This document shows, piece by piece, positions 4,001 to 30,815 of a stretch of 36,246 nt of DNA. Source of the DNA: Patescibacteria group bacterium (lineage in GTDB: Bacteria > Patescibacteriota > Patescibacteriia > JAHJFT01); NCBI GenBank assembly GCA_018824325.1, contig JAHJFT010000043.1:1-36246 (forward strand). Reading direction: 5' to 3'. The notes beneath the pieces were generated by a model, which ran no database searches, was not told the origin of the DNA, and saw nothing but the letters and a program-made list of their open reading frames with translations. The first letter of the stretch is position 1. Each line of letters starts with the position of its first letter. Position numbers and translations under genes: made by a program.

Positions 4001-4381
4001 GGGGATGACAAGAATCGATAGGAGTCTTCTTCTTTGGATGCAGACCGAGCATGACCATGTCTCGCAAATCCAGGTCAAACAACATAAATGCCAATTTAAT
4101 GGCGAAGGTGAAGTACGCTTTCAGCGTTCCATCACTTTCAATGGCGATTGCATAATCAATTGCCCATTCCAACCACTAAGGCTTGCCTCGTGGATTGGGG
4201 TGTCAAAACAGCAAGCTAAGCCCGCCTCTCCGCTCATGAGACGGGACAAAAATCCAAGAGCTGGCTTCACGGTTTTTTGCCGGGTTTCATAGCCGCGAAG
4301 CGAGATGCCAAACCCAGCTAAGTTTGTAGAAATCCAAAAAAGATACTTACCTACACAGGGGTGCAATTCCCCTCATCTCCA
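4001..4381 (+). ncRNA. ssrA: Transfer-messenger RNA
   Basis: The 5' end GGGGATGACAAGAATCGAT and the 3' end form a tRNA-like acceptor stem: GGGGATG (4001-4007) pairs with CATCTCC (4374-4380) with one G-U. The discriminator A is at 4381. A T-arm (AGGGG..CCCCT with loop TGCAATT) lies just inside. CCA is not encoded. A tag frame ends at TAA 4153-4155 with the C-terminus ...FSVPSLSMAIA, a hydrophobic AxA-type degron end. The resume codon cannot be fixed by eye; GCC at 4090 or the AAC codons at 4078-4083 are candidates, giving a tag of about 21-25 residues. The length (381 nt) and position after smpB support the call. Confidence 0.93.
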
Positions 4382-4383
4382 TT

Positions 4384-4415
4384 CTTCGCTCTGCTTCGCA
4401 GAGCTTCGAATGGCA
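4384..4415 (+). repeat. Palindromic direct repeat, copy 1
   Basis: This 32-bp block recurs exactly at 4790-4821. It holds the hairpin CTCTGC-TTC-GCAGAG and is followed by a second hairpin AATGGC-ACA-GCCATT (4409-4423). It starts 3 nt after the tmRNA discriminator base, so it may also act in 3' processing or as a transcription barrier. Confidence 0.85.
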
Positions 4416-4455
4416 CAGCCATTCTTTGAATAATTAATATTACAAATACACAAGC

Positions 4456-4503
4456 CGAAGAATGTCCTTCGAAGCTCGAACGCTAGTGAGAGCGAAGAAG
4501 GAC
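4456..4503 (-). repeat. Diverged inverted copy of the palindromic repeat
   Basis: Read on the minus strand this block contains CTTCGCTCT then GAGCTTCGAAGG and ACATTCTT, the same order as the copy at 4384-4425 but with a changed central loop. Together with the copy at 4790 it brackets the GIY-YIG gene as a pair of inverted ends. Confidence 0.65.
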
Positions 4504-4509
4504 TCAAAT

Positions 4510-4770
4510 ATGAATATTGTCAGTTATATGCATTACGTTTATATTATAAAGAGTAAAAAATATCCTAAGGAATTATATAAGGGTTATGCAAAAGATTTAA
4601 AAGAAAGAATCAGGCGCCATAATTCGGGGTCGTCAAAATATACGGCTCAATTCAAACCATGGGAAATTATATTCTATTGTGCGTTTAAAGATAAAAAGCA
4701 GGCTCTGGGATTTGAAAAATATCTAAAAACAGCCTCGGGCATTGCTTTCATGCGTAAACGATTAATTTAA
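4510..4770 (+). CDS. Single-domain GIY-YIG nuclease
   Basis: This 86-residue protein is a bare GIY-YIG domain (PF01541, UvrC/homing-endonuclease superfamily). It has the YVYI strand at the start, then LYKGYAKDLKERIRRHN holding the second motif tyrosine and the catalytic arginine helix, a YTAQFKPWEIIFY strand, and the metal-binding Glu in FEKYLK. The family cuts DNA with one divalent metal. The frame is open from 4462, but those first codons lie in the palindromic repeat. I chose ATG 4510 because the bases before it (GACTCAAAT) match those before the smpB ATG; ATG 4528 (MHYVYI) is also possible. It lies between inverted repeats at 4456-4503 and 4790-4821. Confidence 0.85.
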   Translation: MNIVSYMHYVYIIKSKKYPKELYKGYAKDLKERIRRHNSGSSKYTAQFKPWEIIFYCAFKDKKQALGFEKYLKTASGIAFMRKRLI

Positions 4771-4789: not shown

Positions 4790-4821
4790 CTTCGCTCTGC
4801 TTCGCAGAGCTTCGAATGGCA
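4790..4821 (+). repeat. Palindromic direct repeat, copy 2
   Basis: Exact 32-bp match to 4384-4415, followed by a related hairpin (ATGGC-ATAA-CCAT). It sits between the GIY-YIG stop and the infC start region and is inverted relative to the copy at 4456-4503. Confidence 0.85.
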
Positions 4822-4869
4822 TAACCATGCATAATGTATTTAGTAAAACAAATAAACATAAATAAAATA

Positions 4870-7112: not shown

Positions 7113-7221
7113 TTCTGTAATCACGTCTGGGTCCGTGGTGTAGCCTGGTTAACATGCCTCCCTGTCACGGAGGAGATCGCCGGTTCAAATCCGGTCGGAC
7201 CCGCCAGACGTGATTACAGAA
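7113..7221. repeat. Perfect 18-bp inverted repeat enclosing tRNA-Asp
   Basis: TTCTGTAATCACGTCTGG (7113-7130) and its exact reverse complement (7204-7221) flank the tRNA. The left arm takes in the first two bases of the tRNA and the right arm begins with the encoded CCA. The primary transcript would carry a stem of about 16 bp stacked on the acceptor stem, with only a small GCC bulge. Confidence 0.9.
7129..7206 (+). tRNA. tRNA-Asp (GTC)
   Basis: Acceptor GGGTCCG/CGGACCC, D-arm GTGTAGCCTGGTTAACAT, anticodon stem CCTCC/GGAGG with loop CTGTCAC (anticodon GTC at 7164-7166), T-arm CCGG-TTCAAAT-CCGG, discriminator G. The CCA is encoded at 7204-7206. The cloverleaf is complete and looks functional. 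Confidence 0.97.
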
Positions 7222-7376
7222 GCCTCCCTGCCTGCCCCGCATTTGCGAGCACAGCGAGCATAGTGCGGGGTCACGGAGGAGATCGCCGGCCTCTCAAGCG
7301 CCTGCCCTCCGTAGCTTCGGCGAAGGATGGGAAGCGAGGGCGTAGGCGGATTCAAATCCGGCCTGCCCCGACCGGA
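7222..7376 (+). pseudogene. 3' half copy of tRNA-Asp split by palindromic insertions
   Basis: The block reuses the tRNA's 3' half in order. GCCTCCCTG is at 7222-7230, TCACGGAGGAGATCGCCGG at 7271-7289 and TTCAAATCCGG at 7351-7361. They are interrupted after the G of the anticodon by 40 bp (7231-7270, ends CCCCGCA/TGCGGGG) and at the T-stem/loop border by 61 bp (7290-7350, stem GCCCTC/GAGGGC). CCTGCCCCG starts insert 1 and recurs right after the last tRNA piece (7362). No 5' half exists, so it cannot fold as a tRNA. Confidence 0.8.
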
Positions 7377-17665: not shown

Positions 17666-17772
17666 AAAACTATCTTTTAAAGAGACTAACATCAATTTCA
17701 GACAAACGTCCTGCCCAGCTCCCCGAGAGCTAGTATTCTTACATTATAAACCAAAAAACGATTTTTGAAAAT

Positions 17773-20532: not shown

Positions 20533-21147
20533 TTATTCAAAAATTTGTTCGCAAAATTGTTTAAAATCAATATTGGAAATCGTGGCGCATTGAGCGATAT
20601 CCGTAAATCCGCCGATGACGTCATACCGACATTTATCCTTCAAGTTGTCAATTAGATTATCACACTTGGAAATATCTCCAGACAGAACAACTTCATTTAT
20701 AAGCCGACTGCCAAGGCATGATTCAGCCGCCTGCGCGCCGCTCAAATACGAACAATAATCAATCCCCAATTTCGCTCCAAGATTCATATAGCAGGTATCT
20801 CTAATGTCCGTCCCAAATATCGCTCGGCAAATATTGATATCATCATCTTGATAAGCAATGAGCAAATTAATTTTATCCTGACAATCTCTTTTTACCGCCG
20901 CGTCAACGATCACGCTGCACTTATCCGGGTCCATGGCCGCGCGCGCCTGGCCAAAAGCTTCGTCCCAATCCGCCGTATATATTACCGCTGAACCCTGCCC
21001 CGCTTCTTGAGGCTGGGACGAAAAACCGTTGTTTTCCGGCGATAAAGTCTGTGAACGCTTATAAAAATAAAAACCAACGCTAAACGCGAGAAAACCAAGC
21101 GCCAGTATTAGAACGACTATTAAAATTATATTTTTATAATTTGTCAT
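20533..21147 (-). CDS. Anchored protein with five evenly spaced Cys-pair loops
   Basis: This 204-residue protein has a membrane helix at about 8-30 and a linker to about 60. Five repeats of C-x10/11-C then occur at residues 77/89, 107/119, 132/144, 162/173 and 187/199, with repeat spacing alternating at about 30 and 25. The intervals look helical, so each pair could clip a helix or helical hairpin. I know no named family with this pattern. ATG 21147 overlaps the giant gene's TGA as ATGA; the longer frame is less likely. The pattern points to an oxidising outer location. Confidence 0.8.
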   Translation of the reverse strand: MTNYKNIILIVVLILALGFLAFSVGFYFYKRSQTLSPENNGFSSQPQEAGQGSAVIYTADWDEAFGQARAAMDPDKCSVIVDAAVKRDCQDKINLLIAYQDDDINICRAIFGTDIRDTCYMNLGAKLGIDYCSYLSGAQAAESCLGSRLINEVVLSGDISKCDNLIDNLKDKCRYDVIGGFTDIAQCATISNIDFKQFCEQIFE

Positions 21148-24100
21148 AAACAGGTTGCGGCAAGACAGGAACAATCCGTGTCGCCGTCATTGTCAATGTC
21201 GCAAAAAATGGAACGGAAAACGTTGCGCAGCATATTCTCCACGCTTGTGTCATCGCCGCCCCAGGCGTACGAATAATCCAATATTGCCGAACCTCGGCCC
21301 ACCCAATTGCCCGGAGATTGAAAATAATAAATGGAATCAAGGCCGTCCTGTGTTTTTACATTGTCGGCGTGCGTGATGCAATCATCGCCCGTCTCTCTGT
21401 TGTCATAAGCGCTGTTGTCATAAGCGATAATCAACCGCGGCTTTTCCTCCAAGTTGGCAAATTCCGCGCCATAAAAATTATTCATCAAAGTGAACCAGAC
21501 CTGTGAAGACCTCAACCATTGGCCGCTAAAGGCATCCCAGAAAGGCACGGTGTTATCCAAAGCCAATATAAGCTTTAAACTGCCTTCACGCCACACATGA
21601 TTGGCCGCCACGTCAACAAAAGCGTTGTTCCATTTCGGACTTCCGCTCGCCGGCGTAAACAAGCCGTTGCTGCAGTTGCCCAAATTTCCGGCCAATCCGT
21701 AAGCCGCGTCGCACATCTCATCCGAGTGCCGCGGAGTCAAGCCCGTATAACTCTTAATCACGCTGCCATCCGACGCCGTGAGCTCAAGCTCGCCCTGGCC
21801 GTTTATTATGTTGTCAACGCATTCGCCGAATAAAGTTTTATCGGCATCCAAAACCTTTTTATATTCCTCGTTTATCAAATAAAAAGTTTTTTCAATATCA
21901 TAGCCGTAAAGGCCGCTGAATTCGCCGATTATGCCGTTGATATTATCGCACACGCCTTTCACACTGTCATAGGTATGGCACTTGGAGCTGGCGCTTGAAA
22001 TAATTACCAAATCCACTTTTTTATTATAATCGGCAAATCCCCAGTCGCATTTTTCTCCCCGGCCCGTGTCCGTCTTGCCGTCGCCGCAATAAGGCGCCAG
22101 GGCCGTGCAGGTCGCGTTGCAATTTGCCGCGGTCGCGCCGTACTCGCCATTGCTCGCGCCCGAATCGCAAACCTCGCCCGTTGACTCAATCACCGAACCC
22201 TCGCCCGCGCCTACGAAACAATAATATTTTCCACCCTTCCCTAACTGACAGATCTGGTCGCCCGGACAACTTTTTCTGTTCGGATCGCATGATTCATACG
22301 ACGTTTCCGGATAATCCCACGGTAACGGCGGATAAGGTCTTGACTGCACAATGCCGTCGCCGCATCTTGGGCCCTCGCGCCGCGCGATATGGCACGTGCT
22401 GTCGCAATATTCCGCGTTATAACCATAATCCAAAGGCGCCTCCGGCGGTATGGCCGGCGTATGCGCCAAGGAAATGCCTTGGCCTTGGCATACGCCCGCA
22501 TATTCATCACACGTACCCTGCGTGCATTCCGTAGACACGCCCAACAAGCACCTTTCACATTTGAATAATATAGGACAAGCATGCTCCTCATACGGATTAC
22601 AGGGCTCGGGCCCAGTAAATGGATTATATTTACCAACGCCGCTCCACAAATTAGGATGTTGATACCAGCACGCCACCGGCCCCTCGTCGCACTCTTCGCC
22701 CGCGTTTAGTGTACTATCTCCGCAATAAGAACCCGTCACCGTGGCCCAATTGCAAGTATGCGTGCAATAGGTGCACGACTCGCCGTAACGCGGCGTGCAT
22801 GGCATACCGTTTGCCGAACCGGCATCACAGCTTTCTATACCCGCATATCTATATCCATCGTCACAATAAGCAATTTTACAAGAAACATTGAGATCGCCTT
22901 CTCTGCCCGGAACAATCACGCAGCCGTCCGCATTGTCCGTGTTGCCGTCATCGCATTCTTCGGCTCCCTCCCGCATGCCGTTGCCGCAGATATTGTCCGT
23001 CACACAGGCGCCCCACGCGCCCCATTCGCAAACCCCCGGATCGCAAGTCCGCACACGCTTGAGTTCATAGCCCGTATCCGGATCCGTGCCGCAAACGGTA
23101 AGGCATGGATTTTTTGTGTCATAAGATTCGCAAGTACCCCCAAAATCACCGCACGCCTTGCGGTCTCCGGGAACGCATGCCTCTCGGGAAATGGAACAAT
23201 AATTCCCCGCCTTGCGATATCCGGGACAATCCCCGTTGGCCGCGCACTGTACTTCGGCCGTATCGCGGCAAATACCTGACGTCATCTCTTCAAAATCGCC
23301 CTCTTCGCATTGCTCCTCGGACTGAATAATTGCATCACCGCACATTGGGCCGGGCGCGCGGCAATCCCAACTGCAGCCGCTCGCGTATTGTCCGTTCTCG
23401 TCTTCCAAGTCGCACTGCTCGGCGCCGGCTAAAACTCCGTCGCCGCAATAAGCTCCTGAACCGGTGCAGTCCAAATTACAATGCCCGTATTTGCCGTTAT
23501 TCGCGCCATCGTCGCATACCTCGCCAAGCTTTAAACTACACACGCCCTCGGGACAATCATAATCATTCTGGCACAAGAGCGCGTCATAATCTCCGCCCAC
23601 GCAAAAACCCTCGCGCACGCCGTTGCCGCAAGCCGGAGCGCGCAAAACGCACTCCCCATATTCGGCGTCGCCCCGAGTCGCCCAGCGGCAGCTTGGCCCG
23701 TCGGCCACGCAGCCGACCTGGCGGCGCTCGTCGCCCGAACATCCCCGGCTCTCCAATTTCGTCTCGCCGAGCTCGCAAATTTCATCCGGACCGTGGAGCC
23801 CATCGCCGCATAAATCATTATTTGAAAATATCGTGTTGTCGCACCAATCTCTTTCAAATCCAATGTGCTCGTCAAAAGAAAACGGGTCCCAAAGATTCTC
23901 AAATTCAAGCTGGGCGTTAATTTGATAATTTTCCGCTCCAATTGAATGGTATTGATAAACAAGCGAACCGCGTGGGCACATTGCCTCAAGCGCGTCGCTG
24001 TCAAAACAAGTTGACGCGTCGTATCCATTGCCGCAGCCGGCAAATTGATTTACCGGGTCAACTGCCACGCTCTCGCCCAGGGCGTTACCCAAAACCGATT

Positions 24101-27100
24101 GCCATGAAGGCCACAAACTCGTTGTATATGCCCGAAGATACGAACCCGACTCCAAGCTCGGTACACTGCCGCCTACTACCTTGCACTCGGTCGTCTCGTC
24201 AATTAGCTTGCATACCGCGTCGCTCTCGCATGAAATACCCGTGTCCACGCCGTCTTTGACGCAGGTACGTTTTCCGCCGGTTATCAAACGATAGGTATCA
24301 AGACTTTTAGCCAACTGCCCGAAATCGGCGATTCTTTTTACGTCGCGCGTCAATTTGTCCTTGTCCGCGTCGCAATGCGCGCCGTCTTCGTGGGCCGAGC
24401 ATTCCAAATCATGGGTGCAGGAAATTAGTTTGCCCGGCTCATCAACTAAAGCTAAGTACTCGCCAAACCGGTCTCGGCAAACGCGCTCATTGGTCACATT
24501 GTCGTAATTAAATACGAAATTTTCCAAAAATTGATTGTAAATATTAACCGTTATTTCATTTGCCCCTTCGCTATGAGACAAAATATAAATATTGGTATAA
24601 ATCGGATCCCCCACCTTGTTGGCCGCGCCAACATAAGTGCTCGTGCCGTACTGCACCGCCGCGTACCCGTCAACTTCCATGCTTTGCGGCGCGCCGCCAA
24701 AACCTTGAGCCGCATACCATTCTTCGGGCGAAAGATGCTCCGGATTGGCCATTATCCTAAGGCCGATCGCGTCGCGCGCCCAAGCCGCGCCCGCTGGCGC
24801 GTCCGCGTAAGTTAACAAATATTCTTTAGGCACACTCTCGGGCGGCGTCGCCACCTCGACCACTGCAAGCTCGGGTAAAAGATTGGGCACATTGTCACGG
24901 CAATACATGCTCGCAAAATGCCATATATCCGGATCGGAAAATTCCATCCACGGATTTTCGCAAAGAAGCACGGTCACGCTCGCCGAATCTGACACAACCT
25001 CTCCGGCGCAACGGCCCGTCTCCTCGCCCTCCGGAATCACGCACAGATTGCGCGCGCAGTCGCTGTCCCGCTCACACGCCCGGCCGAACATATTGTCTAA
25101 AGTTATCTTGGCTTGCGCGCTAACTGCCTCCTGGCCGTTGAGCCCGGCCGGCGCAATCATGGATTCGGTTCTGTCGCCCGGCTCAACCGAAACAATATTA
25201 TCCCCTGAATCATCGGCCGCGCTGCTCGACCAGCCCCACTCCCACTCATAAAGCCCGGCAATCTCTTCTATTGCCTGCGGCGACAAACCCGCTCGCCTTG
25301 ACATGGCGTGGGCCGTGAAACTGCGCTGACCGTACACTTCGCCCTCGCGCGCCGTGTTGAAAAAGAAATAATCCGACGGATCCTTAATCTCAACATAATC
25401 CAATTTGCAAATCTCCGTGCCCGTGCCGAAAAAGCTGGCATAATACTCATCCAAAGCCACCCCGCGCGCGCTCTTAAGCCCGGGCAAAATCCTTATTTGA
25501 TACCATGTATTCGCGTCAAGAACCTGCTTTATTTTATAACTCGCCGTCTGTCCGCTTATCCGGACATCTCCGGCCACCAGCCCGCTTCGGCCGCAATAAT
25601 GCAGCCCTCGCCAATCAATGGTATCATCCGCCTTGGCCCAGGCAAGACCGGCCACCAGACGGCTAAAAAATCTTTTTATTCCGCGCCAAGCTCTCTGCCA
25701 CCAAGACAGACCGTCATCCGGCGCGTAGCTTATTTTATAATCCATCTCATCACCGGCGCACTCTTCGGTTTGACCGGCGATCAGCAAAATCCTGTCTTTC
25801 ATCTCCCCGCCCTCTTCATACCTTATTGACACCTGGTCAATCGGTTCGTTGAACGTAATCTCAATCCGGGCGTTTAGGCAAATATCGTTGGCATCGCCCG
25901 GCGGAATAATTGACTGAACGCGCGGCATTGAATAACAGCATGAATTTTCCGCAAGACCAAGACCCGGGTCAATGGCCTTGCATTCGGCGTCAAATATAAA
26001 ACCGCACTCAAGCCCGAAAGTCGCTTCCCCGATCACCGTCTCGGCCGTGGCTCGAACAAGCGTTGATTGCAATCCGTCCTCATCCACCGCGCCCGCGCCC
26101 ACGGCTTCGGCAACCTGGAGCGCGTCACCGCGCCCGTCGCCCGTACCGATCTCGCACCCCGCTTCCTCGCCAATCCCCACTATTCCGTCGCCGCAATATG
26201 AAGCCGCTGTATAAAAATAAGACGAGCCAAGATTAAGGCAGGCCAAACCGCAGCCTTCTTGGCCATCGCAATCCTCGCCCGTCTCTCGAATACCGTTGCC
26301 GCAACAACCCAAATCGGTCAGTCCCAAGCACGGATAGGTTCCTTCGTTCAGGCACTTTTCCGAACAGCCGTCGCCCGAACGCGGACGACACTGTTCGTCG
26401 CCAATGCCCGCGCAATCAATATTTGAAAGACAGATACTCCCATCCGAACAATCGCGTCCGTCATCGCAGTCCTCACCCAGCCTGATCTCGGCCGTGCCAT
26501 TGCCGCAAATCGCCATGGGCCCGGGATTGGAACCTTCTAAAAGACACTCGGCGCTGCAGCCGTCGCCCGAACGCCGATTTCCGTCGTCGCAGTCCTCGCC
26601 GTCGCCCAAACTGCTGTTCCCGCAAATGGAACCGCCCAGGGTTGAGCCTTCGTTCTGGCAACCCCGACTGCAGCCGTCGCCATTCAAGTCATTACCGTCA
26701 TCGCATTCCTCAACCCCTTCAATCCATGGATTCCGCCACGGAGAAAGATAACTTTCATTCTCCACGTCCGCGTTGCCGCAAGTTCCATCATCCACCACTT
26801 GCTTTACCGGCTCAATAAGACATCGGCCGCTACAGCCATCGCCATCTAAAATATTTGAGTCATCGCATTCTTCACCCAACGAGGCTTCAACCACTCCGTT
26901 TCCGCAAACCGCAATATTCGTAACCGAACCCAAATGAAGACATAATTCTTTATTACACCACGCCGACACGCTATCCGAACTCGTATCAACCGCGCCCCCC
27001 CCAAGCAGTCTCGCCACCAAACTATCATCAACGCTCCAACCCCAATCATATTCCGAACCGTCCAAAACCTGGCCTCGCGTACTGCACTCGTCAGCCTCGC

Positions 27101-30100
27101 CATAGGCAATGGCGCGAAACGCCTGGCGCTCTCCCTGAGACTGGACAATACCTAACGTCGGCCTAAGCTCAACATGGTCAATCATGCAAAGCGCCTCTTT
27201 GGTTCTGAATGTCCATGAAAAATTATCTCCATAATTTAATTCTGTGAGATTTGTCAGCGTATAACTCTTGATTTCATCACTTAAAATAACTCTATAATAT
27301 TCTCTGGGCTCAAAATCAGGATGCGAAATCTCTATCTCTTGCCAAGTTTCGGGATCCTGTCCGGACGCATTTATATTTGTCACCAAATTAGCGCCGGAAA
27401 AATAACGACAATTTTCATTATCACATTTCAGAAGCTGAATATTGCCCGGCTCAAGTATTGAAGCCGAATCCATCAAAGTGTTAAAACGCACATAAATATT
27501 GGCGTTAAGACACGCATCAAGGCAATTGGGTTCATATTCCAAAACCGCCGGATCCGTAAAATCAATCTCCAAAAGCCCAGCGTCCCGCAGGCCGGCCGTC
27601 TGGGCCGCGATTTCCGCAGGCTCGCCCCGCGTTTCGGAAATCGGCTGCGCCTGGGCCAGGTGCGGAGATTCTCCATCCGGCACCGAAACCTGGGCTTTCA
27701 AAATATCGCTTGACGACCAAACCCAATCATAAGAACTCGCGTCAATCGCCAGGCAAATATCTTCACCCGCGATCGCCGCCGCGTTATAATCCACCGGACT
27801 AAAATCACGCGCAATCTTATATCCGGGCTGGACTGCCACATCTCCCAAAGTACACAAATCCGAACTCTCGCTCGTCTTCCACCTGAAACAATAGGCATAG
27901 CCTTCGCCGCATTCCTCGGCCCGTTCTTCCATTTCCAAGCCGCCAACGCTATCGTCGCCGCGCAGTCTCGTGCTGAGCTTTACCTCGTACCAGCTGGCCG
28001 TATCAAAATTTGTAGTCCGAAGCTGAAAGCCTCTATTATCATTAATCGCGTCAATGCCCGATACCGCGGCATCAACCGTGGCCGCGCAAGGCTCCTCGTC
28101 TAAACCAACGCATTTTTTAATCTGGATGTTGTCGGTGGTGAATCGACTCGTATCCATCGGCGCGTTAAAGCGCACCGTGGCCACCGCATTCACGCATACA
28201 TCCTCGCCGCCGCTTCGCTCGCTCCACGGAGAAGGACTGGCCGGCAAATCTTCGGCCATACAAGATTCAACAACCTGCGGAGTAATCGGAATGATACCTG
28301 TGCTAAATCTCCAGACAAACGAAGGTTGGCTCGGCGCGATGGCGCATTCCTCGTCCAAGCCGACGCAAGAACCGTCGGCGCAGCACTGCTGATCCACTTC
28401 GCACGCGCCCGGCTCCTCAAGACAGTTTTCTACCTTGAAATTCAAACCATTACTTAAAGCGTCCTCAGCCGACGCCGCGGTCACCGGGCCGGTTTCGGCC
28501 TCAAGCGGCGCTTCGGTTAAAATTTCTTTGTCCGCCCAGGCAATAATTTCCGCAAGCTTTGAATTATAAAAAGTAACTATTCCTGGAGAAGTACCTAAAC
28601 GTTCTCCAAAAATAGTTACTCCGGTTCCGGCCGGCCCCACATTGGGAAACAGCCGACAAATGCCGGGCGAGAGCGAATCATTATTTACCGTAAAATCAAC
28701 CGGCTCACTCATCCTTCCGTCCGAACGCGTCACCCTGACTTCGTGAATGCCCAAACTAAGCGACTCCCCGTCATTATATTCTCGCGGAACTTTAAATGTT
28801 ATGTTGTCGCGAAACCAGAAATCATCGCCGCAATCTTCCGGAAAATCAAAGCTCGCCAAAGCCGACTGGCCGGTCGAAGAATTGGTAAGCGTCACTCGGC
28901 CCACGCTTGAACCGAAATTTGAGCCGCGCAAAGTCACGTATTCGCCCACCGGCCCGTCCGAAGGGTCAATCTCCACGATAATCGGTTGTCCGGCCAAACC
29001 CGCTTCAACCACTTCAAAATTCACTCCGTTACTGAAATTGCCGTCAACGCTCACGCGCGTCGCGTAATCTCCGGCCGCGAGCGGCGGCACGACCGCGGAT
29101 ATTTCCCCATCATGCCAACTGGCGATTCTTCCGGCCTCTATTTCGCCGAATAAAACCTGGTCCGGTTCCTCGCCAAAACCGACGCCCGAAATATCAACCG
29201 TGATGCCAACCTCGCCCTCGTCCGGCAAAATGCGACAAATGCCCGGCCTTGATACCGCGTTCACCCAAAAATCGGCAATCACCGGACCGCGCGCGTCATT
29301 TGTTAAATCCAGTTCCGCGTCCGCCGTGCCAACCTCAATCGGCCCGCTCACCGCGCCCTGGGGCACGGTAATAATAATTTGATCATTGCTCCACGCGCCG
29401 TCGCATGACGCCAGCTCGGCCGACATCTCGTCGCCCTCGGCCGAAATTCCTAAGAATCTAACCGTGCCCACGCGCGCGCCAAAATATTGGCCGCCTATGG
29501 TCACAAAAGTGCCGAACGCTCCGTCAAGCGGATCAACCGACTCAATAATGGGCAAAGAAACGCACACTCCGTCCTCGCAATAACCAAAAGCACAATCTTC
29601 ATTGCCCGAGCAAGACTGCCCGGAGCAAGCGCCGCACCAATCCGGGTCATCCGGCGAAACGCCGCCGCAATCAATTCCGGTCTCGCCCGCGTCTTGCGCG
29701 CCGTTAAAACAATGCTCGGCCCGGATAATCACGCCCACCGCGCCGGAAAGAGTGTCATTATCATCAATATCGTAAGCGCGCGCTCGTATCTCGTGGCGCG
29801 AGCCAAGCACATAGCCGCTCGTCTCCCATTCAGCCTGGGCCGTAAAGCTTGTCGGCGTAGGTGCTGGCGGACCGTCGCTTCCGATAAGTTCATTATCTAT
29901 CTCAAAATCAACCAATGACACGCCGGCGTCGTCTTCAGCGTAGGCCTGGAGCGCGATAAACGAATTCACGGGCACACCTTGACCTGAATCCGGATAAGTG
30001 ATACTGACGCTCGGCCCCTGCACGTCCACCAGATTGCCAGTGGTAAACAAACCTTCGCAAATTGCGCCAAAACCACTGCAACTTATAAACATGCCGCTGC

Positions 30101-30815
30101 TGCTCCTCACGCCCTCAAAAATTTTAATATTATATTCCGTGTCCGCGTCAAAGCATTTTCTGTCTTGATTAGGTTCGGGACAAGACGCGTCCGGTACAAA
30201 ACTGACCTTGGCGCCCGAAACCGCGTAATCGCCACTCACCTCGGCTCCGTCGCTCGCTCGAGAAACGGAAATATTTTTTTCCGCCGTAGTCGGGTCAACC
30301 GAAGCGTTAAACAAAATTCTTACAGTAACGTTCCTGATTGGAATCGCCCCCTGCGGACTCATGCTCTTTACCTGAAAAACCCTGGCTCCGGACCCGCCAA
30401 CGCCCGGTCCGCCCCCACCGCCCGGTCCGCCCGGCCCTACCCCGGTCGCTTCAAGCAAAGAATTTAAAACAAATTGCGTAATGGCGAAAGAAGTAAGTAT
30501 TATCGCCAGACCAATTACCGCGTTTATCAAAATCTTTTTTGCCTTTTCCACTTTTTCCTCGTCGCCGCCGGCCGTCATCCAAACAAAGCCGCCATATAAA
30601 ATTAAAACCACGGCAGTTATACCAAGAAGCGTAAGGAATGACCTTATTATCCGGGCGACAACCACTCTGATATCACCGCCACCCAAACCGATTTCTTCGG
30701 CCACTTGGGCCAGCCCCACGTCAATGGCAAATGCCTGGTTTACAAAAATTAAAAAACTGACAAAAAATATCAACCCAAATCCGATTATTAAAATTGTACG
30801 CGCTCTCTTTTGCAT
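21144..30815 (-). CDS. Giant cysteine-rich surface protein with VirB2-like pilin N-terminus
   Basis: The 3223-residue frame is uninterrupted. A signal peptide (1-30, ending AFA) is followed by a T4SS-pilin/VirB2-like domain (about 35-125: two hydrophobic helices around LYGGFVWMTAGGDEEKVEKAK) and a Gly/Pro linker. Next come Big_5-like Ig folds (one at about 148-270, three more later), a Cys cluster (about 367-418), about four IPT/TIG-like domains (about 415-795) and two clusters of DUF4215-like motifs (CGNG...GEECDDGN...GDGCS..C). The first cluster spans about 1300-1530 and the second about 2330-2930. The C-terminal part (about 2935-3223) looks like a degenerate von Willebrand A-type domain. 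It starts in a TGATG overlap with the 595-residue paralogue. Adhesion or host contact is inferred, not shown. Confidence 0.9.
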   Translation of the reverse strand: MQKRARTILIIGFGLIFFVSFLIFVNQAFAIDVGLAQVAEEIGLGGGDIRVVVARIIRSFLTLLGITAVVLILYGGFVWMTAGGDEEKVEKAKKILINAVIGLAIILTSFAITQFVLNSLLEATGVGPGGPGGGGGPGVGGSGARVFQVKSMSPQGAIPIRNVTVRILFNASVDPTTAEKNISVSRASDGAEVSGDYAVSGAKVSFVPDASCPEPNQDRKCFDADTEYNIKIFEGVRSSSGMFISCSGFGAICEGLFTTGNLVDVQGPSVSITYPDSGQGVPVNSFIALQAYAEDDAGVSLVDFEIDNELIGSDGPPAPTPTSFTAQAEWETSGYVLGSRHEIRARAYDIDDNDTLSGAVGVIIRAEHCFNGAQDAGETGIDCGGVSPDDPDWCGACSGQSCSGNEDCAFGYCEDGVCVSLPIIESVDPLDGAFGTFVTIGGQYFGARVGTVRFLGISAEGDEMSAELASCDGAWSNDQIIITVPQGAVSGPIEVGTADAELDLTNDARGPVIADFWVNAVSRPGICRILPDEGEVGITVDISGVGFGEEPDQVLFGEIEAGRIASWHDGEISAVVPPLAAGDYATRVSVDGNFSNGVNFEVVEAGLAGQPIIVEIDPSDGPVGEYVTLRGSNFGSSVGRVTLTNSSTGQSALASFDFPEDCGDDFWFRDNITFKVPREYNDGESLSLGIHEVRVTRSDGRMSEPVDFTVNNDSLSPGICRLFPNVGPAGTGVTIFGERLGTSPGIVTFYNSKLAEIIAWADKEILTEAPLEAETGPVTAASAEDALSNGLNFKVENCLEEPGACEVDQQCCADGSCVGLDEECAIAPSQPSFVWRFSTGIIPITPQVVESCMAEDLPASPSPWSERSGGEDVCVNAVATVRFNAPMDTSRFTTDNIQIKKCVGLDEEPCAATVDAAVSGIDAINDNRGFQLRTTNFDTASWYEVKLSTRLRGDDSVGGLEMEERAEECGEGYAYCFRWKTSESSDLCTLGDVAVQPGYKIARDFSPVDYNAAAIAGEDICLAIDASSYDWVWSSSDILKAQVSVPDGESPHLAQAQPISETRGEPAEIAAQTAGLRDAGLLEIDFTDPAVLEYEPNCLDACLNANIYVRFNTLMDSASILEPGNIQLLKCDNENCRYFSGANLVTNINASGQDPETWQEIEISHPDFEPREYYRVILSDEIKSYTLTNLTELNYGDNFSWTFRTKEALCMIDHVELRPTLGIVQSQGERQAFRAIAYGEADECSTRGQVLDGSEYDWGWSVDDSLVARLLGGGAVDTSSDSVSAWCNKELCLHLGSVTNIAVCGNGVVEASLGEECDDSNILDGDGCSGRCLIEPVKQVVDDGTCGNADVENESYLSPWRNPWIEGVEECDDGNDLNGDGCSRGCQNEGSTLGGSICGNSSLGDGEDCDDGNRRSGDGCSAECLLEGSNPGPMAICGNGTAEIRLGEDCDDGRDCSDGSICLSNIDCAGIGDEQCRPRSGDGCSEKCLNEGTYPCLGLTDLGCCGNGIRETGEDCDGQEGCGLACLNLGSSYFYTAASYCGDGIVGIGEEAGCEIGTGDGRGDALQVAEAVGAGAVDEDGLQSTLVRATAETVIGEATFGLECGFIFDAECKAIDPGLGLAENSCCYSMPRVQSIIPPGDANDICLNARIEITFNEPIDQVSIRYEEGGEMKDRILLIAGQTEECAGDEMDYKISYAPDDGLSWWQRAWRGIKRFFSRLVAGLAWAKADDTIDWRGLHYCGRSGLVAGDVRISGQTASYKIKQVLDANTWYQIRILPGLKSARGVALDEYYASFFGTGTEICKLDYVEIKDPSDYFFFNTAREGEVYGQRSFTAHAMSRRAGLSPQAIEEIAGLYEWEWGWSSSAADDSGDNIVSVEPGDRTESMIAPAGLNGQEAVSAQAKITLDNMFGRACERDSDCARNLCVIPEGEETGRCAGEVVSDSASVTVLLCENPWMEFSDPDIWHFASMYCRDNVPNLLPELAVVEVATPPESVPKEYLLTYADAPAGAAWARDAIGLRIMANPEHLSPEEWYAAQGFGGAPQSMEVDGYAAVQYGTSTYVGAANKVGDPIYTNIYILSHSEGANEITVNIYNQFLENFVFNYDNVTNERVCRDRFGEYLALVDEPGKLISCTHDLECSAHEDGAHCDADKDKLTRDVKRIADFGQLAKSLDTYRLITGGKRTCVKDGVDTGISCESDAVCKLIDETTECKVVGGSVPSLESGSYLRAYTTSLWPSWQSVLGNALGESVAVDPVNQFAGCGNGYDASTCFDSDALEAMCPRGSLVYQYHSIGAENYQINAQLEFENLWDPFSFDEHIGFERDWCDNTIFSNNDLCGDGLHGPDEICELGETKLESRGCSGDERRQVGCVADGPSCRWATRGDAEYGECVLRAPACGNGVREGFCVGGDYDALLCQNDYDCPEGVCSLKLGEVCDDGANNGKYGHCNLDCTGSGAYCGDGVLAGAEQCDLEDENGQYASGCSWDCRAPGPMCGDAIIQSEEQCEEGDFEEMTSGICRDTAEVQCAANGDCPGYRKAGNYCSISREACVPGDRKACGDFGGTCESYDTKNPCLTVCGTDPDTGYELKRVRTCDPGVCEWGAWGACVTDNICGNGMREGAEECDDGNTDNADGCVIVPGREGDLNVSCKIAYCDDGYRYAGIESCDAGSANGMPCTPRYGESCTYCTHTCNWATVTGSYCGDSTLNAGEECDEGPVACWYQHPNLWSGVGKYNPFTGPEPCNPYEEHACPILFKCERCLLGVSTECTQGTCDEYAGVCQGQGISLAHTPAIPPEAPLDYGYNAEYCDSTCHIARREGPRCGDGIVQSRPYPPLPWDYPETSYESCDPNRKSCPGDQICQLGKGGKYYCFVGAGEGSVIESTGEVCDSGASNGEYGATAANCNATCTALAPYCGDGKTDTGRGEKCDWGFADYNKKVDLVIISSASSKCHTYDSVKGVCDNINGIIGEFSGLYGYDIEKTFYLINEEYKKVLDADKTLFGECVDNIINGQGELELTASDGSVIKSYTGLTPRHSDEMCDAAYGLAGNLGNCSNGLFTPASGSPKWNNAFVDVAANHVWREGSLKLILALDNTVPFWDAFSGQWLRSSQVWFTLMNNFYGAEFANLEEKPRLIIAYDNSAYDNRETGDDCITHADNVKTQDGLDSIYYFQSPGNWVGRGSAILDYSYAWGGDDTSVENMLRNVFRSIFCDIDNDGDTDCSCLAATCL

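Follow-up and report, generated by a model that had tools for sequence, protein, structure and literature searches.

A Split Half-tRNA Gene as the Probable Remnant of a tRNA-Asp Gene Displaced by a Homing-Type Element in a Patescibacteria Genome

In a contig of a Patescibacteria group bacterium (36,246 nucleotides, analysed as a whole and called the window below), an intact tRNA-Asp gene is followed by the 3′ part of another tRNA-Asp, split by hairpin-forming inserts. In our opinion, this split half-tRNA is probably a displaced remnant of an older tRNA-Asp gene, made by an element of the homing type that resupplies its own target. A mobile element would have entered the old gene at a point between its D arm and its anticodon stem, bringing or regenerating a complete tRNA-Asp, so that the cell kept a working gene, and the useless remnant would later have been split by hairpin elements in its anticodon and T loops. 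Elements of this kind generally carry the gene of a GIY-YIG endonuclease of about 90 aa, which presumably cuts a loop of the cognate tRNA gene, and repair would then copy in the element with a replacement tRNA, either whole or only as the part that was cut off.

Genomes as small as these have a single copy of most of their tRNA genes, and the genes are essential; many of them nevertheless bear the scars of invasion. When a complete working copy is left in place, an essential gene can be invaded repeatedly without killing the cell, and the nested remnants form a readable fossil record of successive insertions.

The tRNA-Asp Locus

The features of the locus and of the tmRNA region are listed in Table 1. 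The preliminary description of this DNA had reported that the 3′ half of tRNA-Asp recurs downstream of the intact gene in three perfect pieces, that palindromic inserts of 40 and 61 bp separate them at the anticodon loop and at the border of the T stem and loop without the loss of a base, and that one word is shared by the start of the first insert and the sequence behind the last piece. All these observations were reproduced, the recurring part being nt 28–66 and both inserts being hairpin-forming; the second copy of the shared word is possibly the stub of a third insert. The remnant region folds far more stably than its shuffled versions (z −6.2), and a 20-nt piece of the remnant is recognisable on its own with an E value of 7e-8.

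Table 1. Coordinates of the features of the tmRNA region and the tRNA-Asp locus in the window.
Feature	Position	Strand	Remarks
tmRNA	4001..4384	+	Rfam
Double-hairpin copy, left of endonuclease ORF	4384..4424	+	38/41 identical to right copy
GIY-YIG endonuclease ORF, tRNA-linked family, just after tmRNA	4462..4770	+	
Double-hairpin copy, right of endonuclease ORF	4790..4830	+	
Inverted repeat around intact tRNA-Asp, 5′ arm, 15 nt, perfect	7113..7127	+	
Intact tRNA-Asp(gtc)	7129..7206	+	ARAGORN; Rfam at 7129-7203, 63 bits; read as replacement copy
Inverted repeat around intact tRNA-Asp, 3′ arm, 15 nt, perfect	7207..7221	+	
Displaced old tRNA-Asp, nt 28-36 (GCCTCCCTG)	7222..7230	+	Exact match
Insert 1, 40-bp hairpin CCTGCCCCGCA...TGCGGGG, in anticodon loop after G34	7231..7270	+	MFE -21.3
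Displaced old tRNA-Asp, nt 37-55 (TCACGGAGGAGATCGCCGG)	7271..7289	+	Exact match
Insert 2, 61 bp, hairpin-forming, at T-stem/loop border	7290..7350	+	MFE -24.7
Displaced old tRNA-Asp, nt 56-66 (TTCAAATCCGG)	7351..7361	+	Exact match
Second copy of CCTGCCCCG	7362..7370	+	First copy opens insert 1 (7231-7239)

The perfect inverted repeat lengthens the acceptor stem of the intact tRNA-Asp, and its 3′ arm directly abuts the first piece of the remnant. An assembly error, which had been named as a possible refutation, is ruled out, because other families of the class have the same type of hairpin at the same anticodon position of a displaced tRNA-Asp, and because a tRNA-Asp nest with both halves kept is found at the corresponding, syntenic position in the family-mate G001. 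The order rplT – small ORF – tRNA-Asp nest is syntenic in both genera in opposite orientation (7129–7206 in the window; 101301–101560 in contig C1 of G001).

The clean splitting in loops is intron-like and the region is strongly structured, so that the interrupted copy might be taken for a functional intron-containing tRNA or a regulatory RNA. We regard this as highly improbable: the Rfam scan of the window gave matches to the tmRNA and two tRNAs only, with no structure of a group I or group II intron; the Asp remnant lacks the 5′ third and the acceptor end; the extent of the remnant differs from locus to locus, and an intact copy of the anticodon is always adjacent. A tRNA-Pro called by ARAGORN at 17669–17761 is considered a false call because it has no support in Rfam. 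An integrase attachment site at the 3′ end of the tRNA was also considered and rejected, as the spacing between tRNA and remnant is only 15 nt and the latter is interrupted and does not extend beyond nt 66.

Intact tRNA Genes Inside Their Own Broken Copies

Such nests were searched for as exact same-strand pieces of a tRNA, at least 12 nt long, within its 700-nt flanks. They were found for 19 of the 44 tRNAs of this genome and for 14 of the 38 on the 744-kb contig C1 of G001. The corresponding controls gave means of 1.2 and 0.85 with the flanks of other tRNAs, 0 and 2 on the opposite strand, and 0 and 0 with the reversed sequence. Where pieces lie on both sides, they are in order in 29 out of 34 nests of the pooled set, 5′ parts upstream and 3′ parts downstream, which means that the broken copy encloses the intact tRNA. 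Particularly, the tRNA-Phe nest contains nt 1–12, 13–33 and 34–51 upstream and nt 45–54 and 55–72 downstream, the tRNA-Ser(gct) nest nt 1–36 and 35–76 upstream and nt 76–95 downstream, and the tRNA-Asn nest nt 1–13 and 13–28 upstream and nt 29–44 downstream. When the displaced pieces are rejoined, Phe and Ser of this genome and Tyr of locus L160 give complete tRNAs recognised by ARAGORN.

The frequency of nests was compared with the presence of small GIY-YIG genes. Without such genes, genome G017 has nests at 0 of 36 tRNAs and G063 at 5 of 38, while GIY-YIG-rich G028 has them at 11 of 35; thus, nests correlate with the enzyme, yet can exist without it. The nests of G063 count against the proposed explanation: either endonucleases get lost or another agent also makes nests. 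In a sister comparison of the tRNA-Glu nest of G028 with G095, no alignable ortholog was found.

Small GIY-YIG Endonucleases Linked to the Nests

Five nests of this genome (Phe, Asn, Tyr, Ser-gct and Arg-cct) contain small GIY-YIG genes, that of Arg-cct with an internal stop. The endonucleases have a size of about 90 aa and their genes often stand beside the intact tRNA of the nest. Assignment to the GIY-YIG domain (PF01541) rests on scores of 52–63 bits with a cut-off of 22.6 and on the presence of the catalytic residues; Y, Y, R, H and E are conserved in at least 104 of 105 enzymes.

The linkage to tRNA genes extends beyond this genome. In 20 relatives, 30 high-scoring GIY-YIG loci were considered, of which two are UvrC; a same-strand tRNA is found within about 300 nt of 10 of the 30. 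On the unselected 744-kb contig of G001, 6 of the 8 GIY-YIG genes are within 120 nt of a same-strand tRNA, the simulated mean being 0.09 and the maximum 3 in 20,000 simulations. When 84,980 named genomes were scanned with an alignment of three of the enzymes, 80 loci were obtained; in 69 of them a same-strand tRNA lies no more than 300 nt away, and no locus has only an opposite-strand tRNA nearby, the local background predicting about 5%. These 80 loci were chosen by similarity to tRNA-linked enzymes, so the count in G001 is the unbiased one. Hosts of the relatives belong to Patescibacteria, Bacteroidota (including Terrimonas ferruginea, Pontibacter and Aequorivita), Ignavibacteria, Omnitrophota (the complete genome of Velamenicoccus archaeovorus), Neomarinimicrobiota, Armatimonadota and Acidobacteriota. 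No relative of the enzymes was found in viral contigs.

The endonuclease tree follows the tRNA isotype: on a quick tree of 105 enzymes built from about 80 columns, 38 changes of isotype are needed, compared with a minimum of 56 in 300 shuffles. This clustering indirectly suggests that the enzymes may cleave the uninterrupted allele in a sequence-specific manner.

No endonuclease gene is present at the Asp nest of the window; this, together with the survival of only the 3′ part of the old copy, speaks against the proposed explanation. For the class of nests an endonuclease ORF in the target gene was found, as were a displaced native part and a resupplied part that keeps the gene whole. The view that an element made this nest is drawn from its relatives, including the enzyme-bearing tRNA-Asp nests L178 (Velamenicoccus), L182 and L232 (both Ignavibacteria).

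In four loci (L186, L210, L219 and L223), an endonuclease of the Ala lineage was observed in a TCCCGAT...ATCGAGGATCC hairpin with no tRNA nearby, the genes apparently sitting between or within protein genes. In L212 and L214 (Chitinophagaceae), a tRNA-Pro array with several tandem remnants was observed, and a distance of about 7 kb separates two endonuclease genes on a single contig.

Anatomy of the Elements and Replacement of tRNA Genes

The clearest elements were found in tRNA-Ala genes of L229 (Patescibacteria) and L113 (genome G035), where the element stands in the anticodon loop between two anticodon bases, with no base lost. Its layout, TCCCGATTTA – endonuclease – TAAATCGAGGA / TCCTCGG... 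– complete tRNA-Ala – ...CGGGA, is that of two hairpins in a row, the first of which has the endonuclease in its loop, while the loop of the second is occupied by the replacement tRNA. Such a layout would explain the inverted repeats around inner tRNAs, including that around the tRNA-Asp of the window, which is comparable to the arms of the second hairpin around the inner tRNA-Ala in both loci. L113 also has an older, more diverged piece of tRNA-Ala cut at the identical site, which indicates repeated invasion. It is a point against the homing explanation that the intact copy keeps the same site and would be expected to be cut again; the repeated nesting in L113 suggests that recutting sometimes happens. 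In other lineages (e.g., L111 and L114), the element resupplies only the 5′ part of the tRNA and its flank, and in L109 the endonuclease is downstream, with the 3′ remnant.

The displaced tRNA differs from its replacement in two cases. In L098, the displaced tRNA-Val rejoins to a tRNA-Val(CAC) with a body clearly different from that of the inner tRNA-Val(CAC). In G013, the displaced 3′ piece CGAATCCCTCCCGGCCCACCA is unlike the tRNA-Tyr of the same genome and identical to the end of the intact tRNA-Tyr of its congener G054. The interval between tRNA-Thr and tRNA-Tyr contains an endonuclease and displaced Tyr pieces in G054 and is only 49 bp long in G013; one genus thus shows both the empty and the filled state of the site, with direct signs that one allele replaced another.

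The majority of the displaced pieces do not differ from the intact copy, and for this reason most nests are no proof of foreign replacement, as local duplication or gene conversion also fits. According to one alternative, the tRNA genes underwent partial tandem duplication, hairpins gathered in the dispensable copy, and the endonucleases settled in neutral sequence. This identity of the pieces agrees with it, as do flanks shared in some nests (Glu-CTC repeats 9 nt of its 3′ flank, and Leu-TAA its 5′ flank). We nevertheless consider such duplication unlikely, because it leaves unexplained the complete copy inside the broken one, the linkage of the endonucleases to one strand (69 to 0), their clustering by isotype and the displaced tRNAs that are unlike their replacements. 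Replacement by a resupplying element is preferred.

Hairpin Inserts in tRNA Loops

The pooled set contains 58 exact splits with inserts of 12–130 bp, and 46 of these are in D, anticodon or T loops (44% would be expected under uniform distribution; p 4e-8). At the junctions, 34 splits have no gap, one base is duplicated in 15 and two bases in 5, and in 4 one base is lost. Many inserts are two hairpins in tandem. Those of the Asp remnant are irregular and not perfect double hairpins; within the window, the only perfect one is that to the left of the GIY-YIG ORF.

Some of the inserts have sequences characteristic of particular tRNAs. The insert in the anticodon loop of tRNA-Tyr is CCACCGCC...GGCGGGG-TGCCGCC...GGCGGCA in most loci, in several CPR phyla. 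The type found in the anticodon loop of tRNA-Asp, CCTGCCCCG...CGGGG-like, occurs at the same place in displaced tRNA-Asp of other families; of the 381 genomes of the class, 5 contain an exact pattern of it, each belonging to a different family, the reversed control giving 0 matches, and similar inserts are present in L010 and L017. A stretch 95% similar to insert 2 was found in the displaced tRNA-Glu nest of this genome (contig C93).

Rickettsia palindromic elements are short palindromes that lie within genes without destroying their function; they form a dispersed family of similar sequences, many of them in frame in protein genes. The likeness to them drawn in the preliminary description proved loose, and membership in this class was rejected: a search of the genome for the pattern of insert 1 gave a single occurrence, so there is no dispersed family, the inserts being single or double hairpins typical of the tRNA that was hit, and the host tRNA copy was destroyed and replaced. 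The accompanying idea that palindromes entered a dispensable copy holds as regards clean insertion of hairpins into tRNA loops; as for the copy itself, it is read here as the displaced remnant and the intact gene as the replacement.

Transposition of hairpins as single-strand DNA could by itself be proposed, with hairpins, including an intact tRNA with an extended stem, entering the loops of other hairpins and GIY-YIG genes as mere passengers. The clean inserts in loops, the many double hairpins, the 15-nt perfect inverted repeat around the tRNA of the window and the carriage of endonuclease and tRNA in two hairpin loops in L113 and L229 agree with such a process. However, long arms are found in a minority of nested tRNAs (arms of at least 10 nt surround 7–11% of tRNAs, well above the control), and the enzyme so far linked to the nests is an endonuclease; we consider this explanation quite improbable, even more so than tandem duplication. 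Inverted arms around the endonuclease are not put forward as a general feature, as arms of at least 9 nt were found in 11 of 88 cases with 4% expected, a modest excess that is clear mainly in the Ala lineage.

Comparison with Known Systems

Endonuclease ORFs of fungal mitochondria resupply the end of the host gene (Allomyces atp6; Glomus atp6, atp9, cox2 and nad3) and share with the tRNA nests an endonuclease in an essential gene, a replacement part that is carried along and partly foreign, and a native part displaced as a remnant (PMC3630166). In contrast to these ORFs, the system considered here is found in bacterial chromosomes, affects the genes of tRNAs of almost all isotypes and probably those of tmRNA, uses GIY-YIG enzymes of about 90 aa, often supplies a complete replacement copy, and shows repeated nesting and hairpin inserts. 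We judge it to be the known fungal-mitochondrial logic in a new domain, target and scale.

Fungal mitochondria also contain double-hairpin elements, and repetitive hairpin elements have reportedly been described in the mitochondria of sponges. Like the inserts studied here, they are short hairpins that invade genomes and are apparently mobile; those considered here differ in being bacterial and in their position within loops of tRNAs. Their sequences are typical of the tRNA that was hit (Tyr, Asp), and those of the Ala lineage carry an endonuclease and a tRNA in their own loops.

In CPR bacteria, insertions with homing endonucleases are known in rRNA genes, and GIY-YIG proteins occur in those that are not introns (PMC11270868). 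The bacterial group is the same, but the targets are rRNA genes, and most of the insertions are LAGLIDADG genes and group I introns removed from the RNA; tRNA is not mentioned in that paper (PMC11270868). Searches of the open-access literature did not turn up any description of GIY-YIG genes residing in tRNA nests of bacteria.

Taking the loci together, we lean, with some reserve, towards a wider view: minimal elements of about 0.4–0.5 kb, consisting of an endonuclease and a tRNA, may be widespread in bacteria, their isotype-specific GIY-YIG enzymes repeatedly splitting and replacing tRNA genes and causing a selfish, sometimes horizontal turnover of these genes in several phyla, with double hairpins as the cargo-free form. 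Should this model be correct, bacteria are hosts to a class of selfish elements that inhabit tRNA genes and replace what they break. Then tRNA genes would not always be vertically inherited, which bears on tRNA phylogeny and on odd tRNA identities, and the enzymes of about 90 aa would be very small nucleases specific to tRNA genes and directly assayable.

The tmRNA Region and Other Observations

The tmRNA of the window is closely followed by an ORF of the tRNA-linked GIY-YIG family, flanked by two double-hairpin copies (Table 1). G001 keeps the order smpB–tmRNA–IF3 without a GIY-YIG ORF between tmRNA and IF3. In the same genome (L120, C1 99080–99290), the tmRNA is followed by a GC-rich structured insert and then by a displaced duplicate of the tmRNA 3′ end (CGATTCCCCTCATCTCCACCA); owing to this displaced piece, it seems that the elements also target the tRNA-like domain of tmRNA. 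In the genome of the window, an insert of the same type stands before the 3′ remnants of both tRNA-Ser(gct) and tRNA-Glu. Elsewhere in the window, a very long ORF of 3223 aa occupies positions 21144–30815 of the minus strand.
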